Source of the DNA: Methanobacteriota archaeon
GTDB lineage: Archaea > Thermoplasmatota > Thermoplasmata > RBG-16-68-12
Length of the DNA: 37,368 bases
Direction of reading: 5' to 3'
NCBI GenBank assembly: GCA_005878385.1
Contig: VBMN01000075.1
Span: forward strand, 1 to 37,368
Of this stretch, positions 28,245 through 29,894 are shown piece by piece. Made by a program: the position numbers and the translations under genes. Each line of letters opens with the position of its first letter. Positions within the stretch are counted from its first letter, which is position 1. Below the pieces are notes generated by a model. That model made no database searches. It saw only the letters and a list, made by a program, of their open reading frames with translations, and was not told the DNA's origin.

Positions 28245-29894
28245 ATGACGATGATCACGGAGAAGGAAGTCCTCGACGTCCGCGAGCCGCCGGGCCGGGC
28301 GATGGGCAAGGTCGCGGAGCTGTGGAAGCCCGTCGAGGGGACGAACAAGATCATGTGCACCGCGTGCGCGCGGTACTGCAAGATCGGCGAAGGTCAGGTC
28401 GGCCTCTGCGGGATCCGCGGCGTGCACGAGGGCAAGCTTTGGCTCTACGTGTATGGCCGTGTCATCACGGGCCACGTTGATCCGATTGAGAAGAAACCGG
28501 TGTCGCACTATCGGCCTGGATCGAAGATCTTCAGCATCGCGACGACCGGGTGTAACTGGCTTTGCCATCCGGCGGGAACTGCAATCCTGATGGCAGATGG
28601 GGATACTCGTGCCGTGGAGGAGGTCCGTCCAGGAGACGCCCTCTGGTCCGTAAACAAAAGGCTCGATCCGATTCTCGGTATGGTAACGGGAGCAGGCAGT
28701 CGAAAAGCCGAGACGTTCAGAGTGGCGGTGGAAGGAATTTCGAATCCGCTCCTTGCGACCGGAGATCATCCCGTCCTCTCGAATTCCGGGTGGTGTAAAG
28801 TCAAAGAGCTACGGGCCGGAGTGAAGGTCCTTGCGTCCGCTGAGATAGCCGAATTTACCACGGGCCAGGACAAGCCCCCGGTCCTCGACACCCACTCGCG
28901 GCGATTTCATTCCGGCGCCACGGCGGGATACAAACGATTAATCCATACGAGAGTCGATGTCGCGCCTCAACTCACTTGGAAAGAAGTCAAGGCCATCCGT
29001 TCCGAGGGGTCGGACGAACAAGTCTACAGCTTCGAATGTATTCAATCTCACACATATATTGCTAATGGTATCACATTACATAATTGTAGGTACTGCCAAA
29101 ATGCTGACATCTCGCAGCGACGTAAGGTGGAAGGCATCGAGGTTGAACCGCAAGACGTTGTTCGCATGACCCTCGAACAAGGCTGCCAGGGCCTCGCCTA
29201 CACCTACAATCAGCCGACGATCTTCATCGAGTTCGCCCGCGATATCGGCATGCGCGCACGTAAGGCAGGCCTCATCAACATCTTCGTTTCGAACGGTTAC
29301 GACACACCGGAGACGGTCGCGGAGATGCCGAAGTTCCTCGACTGCGTCACCGTGGACTTCAAAGGCTCCGGGGAGACGAATTTCGTCCGGAAGTACATCA
29401 ACATCCCGAACGCGGAGCCGATTTTCCAGACCCTCCTCGACACCCGCGACACGAAGAAGATCCACATCGAGATCACGGACCTGATCGTCCCGCAGGTCGG
29501 CGACGACCTCGGGGCCGCGCGGAAGCTCTCAAAGTGGGTGTACGATAATCTCGGCCCCGATACGCCGATCCACTTCCTCCGGTTCCACCCCGACTACAAG
29601 ATGATGGAGTTCCCGTGGACCCCGGTCGAGACACTGGAGAAACACTGCACGGTCGCGAAGGAGGAAGGTCTGAAATACGTCTACATCGGGAACGTGTCGG
29701 GCCATCGCCTCGAGAACACGTACTGTCCTGGGTGCAACGCGATCGCGATCAAGCGGTACGGGTTCGACATCACGGGCTGGTATCTCGACAAAGACAACAA
29801 GTGCAAGAAGTGCGGGTATAAGCTCGCGATCTTCGGTCGCCTCGAGCAGACGGCAAAGGAAAACCGCTTCTACAGCGTCCTGTACCACCGTTAG
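28245..29894 (+). CDS. amrS: AmmeMemoRadiSam-system radical SAM enzyme, interrupted by an intein
   Basis: 549 residues as encoded, 375 after removal of a 174-residue intein. The host protein is AmrS, the radical SAM member of the AmmeMemoRadiSam group, related to pyruvate formate-lyase activases. The N-terminal Cys cluster is CTACARYCKIGEG...GLCG. SHYRPGSKIFSIATTGCNWL leads into the [4Fe-4S] motif, which after splicing reads GCNWLCRYCQN (CxxxCxxC). GLAYTYNQPTIF and VTVDFKGSGE are TIM-barrel landmarks. A C-terminal zinc-ribbon-like part has CPGC and CKKC. The biological reaction is not established; AmrA (AMMECR1) and AmrB (Memo) partners are not in this window. Without splicing the first and second cluster Cys are 175 residues apart, so the precursor should be inactive. 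Confidence 0.95.
   Translation: MTMITEKEVLDVREPPGRAMGKVAELWKPVEGTNKIMCTACARYCKIGEGQVGLCGIRGVHEGKLWLYVYGRVITGHVDPIEKKPVSHYRPGSKIFSIATTGCNWLCHPAGTAILMADGDTRAVEEVRPGDALWSVNKRLDPILGMVTGAGSRKAETFRVAVEGISNPLLATGDHPVLSNSGWCKVKELRAGVKVLASAEIAEFTTGQDKPPVLDTHSRRFHSGATAGYKRLIHTRVDVAPQLTWKEVKAIRSEGSDEQVYSFECIQSHTYIANGITLHNCRYCQNADISQRRKVEGIEVEPQDVVRMTLEQGCQGLAYTYNQPTIFIEFARDIGMRARKAGLINIFVSNGYDTPETVAEMPKFLDCVTVDFKGSGETNFVRKYINIPNAEPIFQTLLDTRDTKKIHIEITDLIVPQVGDDLGAARKLSKWVYDNLGPDTPIHFLRFHPDYKMMEFPWTPVETLEKHCTVAKEEGLKYVYIGNVSGHRLENTYCPGCNAIAIKRYGFDITGWYLDKDNKCKKCGYKLAIFGRLEQTAKENRFYSVLYHR
28563..29084 (+). mobile_element. Mini-intein within amrS, no homing endonuclease
   Basis: 174 codons in frame with amrS. 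It begins with Cys1 in CHPAGTAILMADGDTRAVEE (block A), has TGDH at residues 66-69 (block B Thr-x-x-His), and ends VYSFECIQSHTYIANGI then TLHN (blocks F and G) with His163, penultimate His173 and terminal Asn174. The first extein residue is Cys. All residues needed for class 1 splicing are present; the common block F Asp is Ser156. There is no LAGLIDADG or other endonuclease domain in the middle. The last part is AT-rich (12 of 40 bases G or C at 29041-29080), unlike the GC-rich host gene, which suggests a foreign origin. Confidence 0.93.

Follow-up and report, generated by a model that had tools for sequence, protein, structure and literature searches.

A mini-intein within the cysteine motif of an archaeal radical SAM protein, AmrS, and another intein site three residues further on in its relatives

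Within the 37,368-nucleotide stretch of archaeal DNA analysed here (the window), a radical SAM gene is interrupted by an intein at the second Cys of its CxxxCxxC motif, so that the residue that would attack during splicing is also a predicted ligand of the iron-sulfur cluster. This raises the question of whether splicing is a redox- or metal-responsive switch on the enzyme, as the preliminary description of this DNA had proposed, or whether the overlap is forced by the need of an intein for Cys, Ser or Thr at +1 of a conserved site.

The host protein is AmrS, the AmmeMemoRadiSam radical SAM enzyme; in profile searches the window extein scores 300.4 bits with TIGR04337 (AmmeMemoSam_rS), against a cut-off of 220 (Table 1). 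The translation reads TTG-C103-NWL-[C107 ... H279-N280]-C281-RY-C284-QN, and the mature protein regains CxxxCxxC as CNWL+CRYC, the form seen as CNWLCRYC in the empty allele L053 of a relative. The translation and this uninterrupted allele, GCNWLCRYCQN, confirm that Cys281 is both the +1 residue and the second Cys of the motif, and the range singled out earlier, 29085-29096, covers exactly C-R-Y-C, from the Cys281 codon to the Cys284 codon. Cys103 had been placed three residues before intein Cys1. It is an N-extein motif Cys near Cys1, but three residues intervene between the two, which rules out position -3 and assigns Cys103 to -4. Cys103 is invariant in 24 aligned AmrS sequences, mainly intein-free, because the enzyme itself needs it, and its presence therefore does not indicate that a switch has been selected. 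Among solved structures, no sequence relative of AmrS was found at E 1e-3. Chemistry and homology favour the earlier view that the +1 Cys would act in splicing and then bind the cluster: Cys281 would serve as acyl acceptor and subsequently become a ligand, and the enzyme would be active only afterwards. Since splicing rebuilds CxxxCxxC, no active AmrS would be expected before it; splicing is thus likely to be obligatory for AmrS activity, with one or both inteins having to exit first.

Table 1. Features of the interrupted AmrS gene, in window positions.
Feature	Position	Strand	Evidence
AmrS precursor gene, 549 aa + stop	28245..29894	+	translation; TIGR04337 1.4e-89, PF04055 1.2e-7
N-extein, residues 1-106, GC3 0.86	28245..28562	+	
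Cys103, first Cys of the motif (CxxxCxxC), extein position -4	28551..28553	+	
174-aa mini-intein, site A, GC3 0.56	28563..29084	+	PF14890, TIGR01443, HINT fold in model
Intein Cys1 (residue 107), TGC	28563..28565	+	Cys in 11/12 aligned site-A inteins
Block B T-G-D-H (intein T66, H69)	28758..28769	+	T66 and H69 invariant in 12 aligned site-A inteins, where residue present
Block F intein Cys159 (residue 265), further invariant Cys	29037..29039	+	12/12 aligned site-A inteins
Intein C-terminal His173-Asn174	29079..29084	+	invariant in 12 aligned site-A inteins
C-extein, residues 281-549, GC3 0.84	29085..29891	+	
Cys281, +1 splicing nucleophile and second Cys of CxxxCxxC	29085..29087	+	empty allele L053, GCNWLCRYCQN
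Site B junction, 5' of Cys284, empty in window	29093..29094	+	filled in 13/20 AmrS-bearing family genomes
Cys284, third Cys of CxxxCxxC; would-be +1 of a site-B intein	29094..29096	+	

The insert displays the features of a class 1-type intein, namely Cys1, TxxH, a C-terminal His-Asn followed by Cys and a HINT fold in the predicted model. In profile searches it matches TIGR01443 (intein_Cterm) above the cut-off and PF14890 (Intein_splicing) at 2.4e-8, slightly below the gathering score, and no endonuclease domain was found. In the predicted structure of the precursor (mean pLDDT 78.6), the radical SAM barrel surrounds a HINT domain. The HINT domain (residues 107-280) superposes on the Mtu RecA intein (2in8) with a Z of 20.2 and an rmsd of 1.4 over 134 residues, and the barrel (residues 70-481) resembles pyruvate formate-lyase activating enzyme with a Z of 20.6; pLDDT drops below 50 on both sides of the insertion, at residues 101-105 and 282-296. 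The solved structure closest in sequence to the intein is the Spl DnaX mini-intein (3.4e-5). GC3 of the intein is 0.56 versus 0.84-0.86 in the exteins, a foreign composition. Phage records gave no match to the intein at E 1e-3, a plasmid collection gave two remote matches (26.6% and 31% identity), and viral contigs gave no match to the AmrS pattern. Cys159 was considered as a redox partner and judged a weak candidate, since by the block F consensus its side chain probably points into the core.

All 22 genomes of the family, the window's own included, were searched for AmrS and the loci were read. AmrS was found in 20 of these 22 genomes and not in G001 or G003, a weak match in the latter being taken for another radical SAM protein. 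The loci reveal two intein sites in one motif, three residues apart (GCNWL^CRY^CQN), site A at the second Cys and site B at the third. Intein A occupies the exact junction of the window in 13 of the 20 AmrS-bearing genomes, the window's own among them, which together with the uninterrupted allele shows that the site is no product of faulty annotation. Site A alone is filled in five (G000, G002, G012, G019 and G021), site B alone in another five (G004, G011, G016, G017 and G018) and both in eight (G005, G006, G008, G009, G010, G014, G015 and G020), and two, G007 (L053) and G013, are empty. The genomes are drafts, mostly MAGs; the double occupancy of G008 combines the contigs L037 and L036, and intein A is cut by the contig start in both L036 (G008) and L049 (G020). 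Tandem inteins are present in L034, L035, L038, L043 and L051 and partially in L036, L040, L044 and L049. Both inteins and both exteins share a single-contig open frame in G005, G006, G009, G014 and, in the sister family, G025; a second member of that family, G029, has intein A, inside which its contig ends. In the tandem alleles the middle extein consists of Cys-Arg-Tyr, and the +1 nucleophile of each intein is a prospective ligand of the cluster.

Outside these two families, 12 of 13 further members of the order gave an uninterrupted AmrS match and one gave none at E 1e-12. Site B is also occupied in L108 and L109, two seemingly near-identical AmrS of thaumarchaeal type, and in the distant AmrS L121 (G357). 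In the phylum sample beyond the order, 222 of 389 genomes matched at E 1e-25, among which the best matches were listed, and nine genomes (six low scorers and three middling) were re-read, yielding one interrupted copy, that of G357, a minimum for the sample as a whole. The AmrS of the window family is 59-70% identical to those of Nitrososphaerota and Marsarchaeota and 67-73% identical to those of families f4 and f6 of its own order, and only ~40% identical to the copies of f2 and f3, which may point to a transfer of the gene or to a different paralogue in these two families.

For a tandem precursor, the predicted structure (mean pLDDT 73.4) shows two HINT domains, at residues 105-278 and 282-466, with the barrel spanning 67-664. 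The first HINT domain resembles the RecA intein (Z 19.8), the second archaeal inteins (Z ~19.6) and the barrel pyruvate formate-lyase activating enzyme (Z 18.7), and pLDDT lies below 50 at junction residues 99-106, 279-281 and 467-479. Two close inteins in one protein have been described before: those of the Thermococcus kodakarensis DNA polymerase (PolB) lie 85 residues apart and those of Pyrococcus abyssi CDC21 48 residues apart (PMC8966425), and four haloarchaeal MCM sites are termed close (MCM-a/d; PMC10643990). In contrast, the AmrS inteins split one ligand motif twice, and their three-residue spacing is far below the 48 and 85 residues given in the literature searched. No report of inteins in AmrS, or of inteins this close together, was found in that literature, which is of limited coverage.

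The site-A and site-B inteins, as judged from their identity in one gene (27% over 136 columns in G005), are two distantly related lineages. The best NCBIfam match of intein A is the intein of the Rv2578c family of radical SAM proteins, NF038136 (2.7e-9 for the window, 1.1e-7 for G005), to which the window intein aligns from Cys1. In contrast, the best match of all three site-B inteins scanned is NF045703, the intein of Tes, the tetraether lipid synthase, with E-values of 2.8e-18 and 2e-19 for the large B inteins and 1e-8 for the G005 mini-intein (next TIGR01445, 7.3e-7). Tes belongs to a different radical SAM family, and NF045703 is absent among the matches of the window intein. The distant site-B intein of L108 is among those for which Tes is the best NCBIfam match. 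Intein-free Tes proteins match NF045703 from profile position 611 in 31 of 31 cases among the matches listed, and in the six Tes loci read this position is the third Cys of CDLSCWYC; by these alignments the Tes intein is placed at the site-B position of the motif. For NF038136, a search of 300 genomes, whose matches were mostly ordinary radical SAM domains, was used only for the start positions of best matches. The Rv2578c family is bacterial; in two of ten such loci read the match starts at profile position 335, corresponding to the third motif Cys, and in eight it starts elsewhere. The Rv2578c-family intein thus appears, on thinner evidence than that for Tes, to lie at the third Cys, unlike the second Cys occupied in the window. 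An intein at the second Cys was met only in AmrS. The Cys-3/Cys1 spacing of the MoaA intein implies a third-Cys position for that intein too, if its disulfide trap falls within the radical SAM motif. Inteins thus appear to recur at this motif across four radical SAM families: AmrS, Tes, Rv2578c and, presumably, MoaA.

Occupancy of both sites has changed repeatedly. On an extein DNA tree of 20 rows, in which six of the 17 inner branches have good support, at least six changes of state are required for A and at least seven for B. This tree was built without G010, G029, G357, YP1 and FK4, with the N-extein of G015 omitted (broken upstream) and with G008 and G020 represented by the C-extein alone; a protein tree included YP1 and FK4 and did not resolve the genus, and L113, with an in-frame stop, was left out of both alignments. 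The repeated changes and the two intein-free relatives fit mobile elements. Complete site-A copies measure 353 aa (G002, G019) or 172-175 aa (nine copies), and site-B copies 392-404 or 181-196 aa, the shorter inteins of G010 described below excepted. Scans of larger copies found an endonuclease domain of the REase_MTES_1575 (PF18741)/DUF559 type, not LAGLIDADG, in one site-A intein, L032:1083-2141 (-); the site-A copy of G019 has the same length as that of L032. LAGLIDADG_3 is found in B copies, over the cut-off in L035 and L108 and slightly below it in L121. In the pair G014/G017 the B intein is far more diverged than the host gene (pS 0.785 versus 0.199 in the C-extein), which speaks for exchange. 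In G005/G015 the divergence of both inteins (A: omega 0.19, dS 0.48; B: omega 0.16, dS 0.47) is close to that of the C-extein (dS 0.44), and this tandem pair was therefore probably inherited and kept together; purifying selection on both inteins suggests that both splice. Across 19 intein pairs, omega ranges from 0.14 to 0.30 in the 13 with finite dS, the other six being saturated. An uninterrupted AmrS offers 48 Cys, Ser or Thr residues as possible +1 positions, 24 of which are C/S/T in all 17 intein-free rows compared; the chance of both sites hitting the three motif Cys is p ~0.011 if these 24 positions are taken as equally likely, yet inteins favour conserved sites (PMC2814812).

Taken together, the favoured explanation, which we hold with good though not full confidence, is that the [4Fe-4S] ligand motif of AmrS is split at its second Cys by a splicing-type (Cys1, TxxH, HN, Cys+1) mini-intein and that this element is one of two that have repeatedly invaded the motif. 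A and B would be mobile elements that sometimes both enter, leaving Cys-Arg-Tyr as the middle extein, and would owe their persistence to a conserved site that supplies Cys as +1 residues and allows no imprecise removal. The thiols of the splicing active site adjoin other thiols (Cys-4/Cys-3, Cys1, Cys+1 and Cys+4), so splicing would probably be slowed by oxidation or a thiophilic metal; for splicing in vitro we consider such slowing somewhat more probable than its absence. That selection has made this sensitivity into a cellular switch is a separate claim, which is possible and disfavoured.

Such a switch would operate through a disulfide, Cys103-Cys1 or Cys1-Cys+1, formed under O2 stress and keeping AmrS as an inert, protected precursor until reduction frees splicing at the moment when a cluster could be built. 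MoaA, itself a radical SAM enzyme, is the nearest model, since its N-extein also offers a Cys able to pair with Cys1. In the intein of Pyrococcus abyssi MoaA a disulfide between Cys(-3) and Cys1 prevents splicing (Callahan et al. 2011, as reviewed in PMC10663303 and PMC3922620), and a 2023 review treats MoaA as a case of redox control. The SufB precedent invoked in the preliminary description has a basis, SufB being named as a stress sensor (PMC5874633), but MoaA is the closer parallel. An N-extein Cys at -3 is found at site B of the relatives (C-R-Y-C1), with a spacing identical to that of the MoaA trap. In the window, by contrast, the intein sits at the second Cys of AmrS, which puts the closest Cys of the N-extein at -4, and no experiment on such a spacing was found in the literature searched; moreover, relatives of this AmrS, unlike MoaA, can carry a second intein three residues away. 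The setting is also compatible with a switch: COX1, a haem-copper oxidase, is encoded in 21 of the 22 family genomes, the window's own included, from which it follows that the host is probably not an anaerobe, and an enzyme of an O2-labile class would thus probably work in O2-respiring cells. The family fits Ca. Angelarchaeales (GTDB RBG-16-68-12), known from Angelo soils and Rifle sediments, in which as many as two terminal oxidases that reduce oxygen are described (PMC9038741). Of the likely partners of AmrS, AMMECR1 is present in all 22 family genomes, including that of the window, and Memo in 19; Memo was not found in the window's own genome, which is 77% complete. The endonuclease-free mini-inteins at site A are under purifying selection, which would suit a switch, but selection on splicing alone explains these omega values. 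The motif Cys residues are required by the enzyme itself, G007 and G013 do without any intein, gain and loss recur on the gene tree, and inteins in general are known to favour conserved sites, so that selection for redox control seems to us unlikely.

A metal switch is rated lower again. Here the precursor would chelate Fe2+ or Zn2+ through Cys103, Cys1, Cys281 and Cys284 and splicing would be blocked until metal or cluster donors were right; the two termini of a HINT domain lie near each other, which suits this idea, but the junctions of the model have low pLDDT. Precedents exist in mycobacterial DnaBi1, where Zn2+ on the catalytic Cys blocks splicing (PMC7360933) and where the P-loop Ser of DnaB, a Mg2+ ligand in the mature protein, is catalytic in splicing (PMC6195587). 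The DnaBi1 intein of Mycobacterium smegmatis thus resembles the present one in that a metal ligand of the mature enzyme also serves splicing, which is redox- and Zn2+-sensitive there, and differs in its class 3 chemistry, its ATPase host and its use of Ser in place of Cys. The opposite reading, that the inteins are purely selfish, have no meaningful response to redox state or metal and overlap with the ligands only because +1 must be C/S/T at a conserved site, has about an even chance. The insertion bias, the larger copies with endonuclease domains, the divergence of the G014/G017 B inteins relative to their hosts and the existence of empty alleles all favour it; the thiol-rich junctions, however, make some sensitivity chemically likely, and divalent cations or oxidation inhibit several inteins (PMC7360933, PMC6195587). 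It is very improbable that these are broken inteins or assembly artefacts in MAGs where AmrS is a dying gene. Two family members lend some colour to that idea. In G012 (L042) Trp (TGG) replaces Cys1 of the site-A intein, the other block residues being intact, and in G010 (L040) both inteins are shortened in frame, to 141 and 137 aa, the B copy lacking the block B CTPDH stretch; these copies may be unable to splice or may reflect assembly errors. A class 3 mechanism for G012 was rejected, its conserved block F Cys159 lying three residues past the position of the class 3 nucleophile. The four closest intein pairs nevertheless have omega values of 0.16-0.24, with 0.02-0.03 in their C-exteins, and five A+B alleles, each an open frame that includes both exteins on one contig, also argue against decay.

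The tandem alleles extend the question to the order of events. If they splice, they would set a very short limit for an extein between two inteins and pose a problem of ordering: which intein leaves first, and whether a mis-spliced product without CRY may arise. It is conceivable, though quite improbable, that two inteins separating the three ligand Cys form a double lock, in which the Cys-3/Cys1 redox trap of the second intein would permit an ordered assembly of AmrS only under reducing conditions; were this so, the ligating Cys-Arg-Tyr tripeptide would undergo two successive splicing reactions. The AmrS case draws attention to the radical SAM motif as a place where inteins recur, and the empty, A, B and A+B alleles of this one gene provide a natural series in which to test whether redox-sensitive inteins are switches or parasites.
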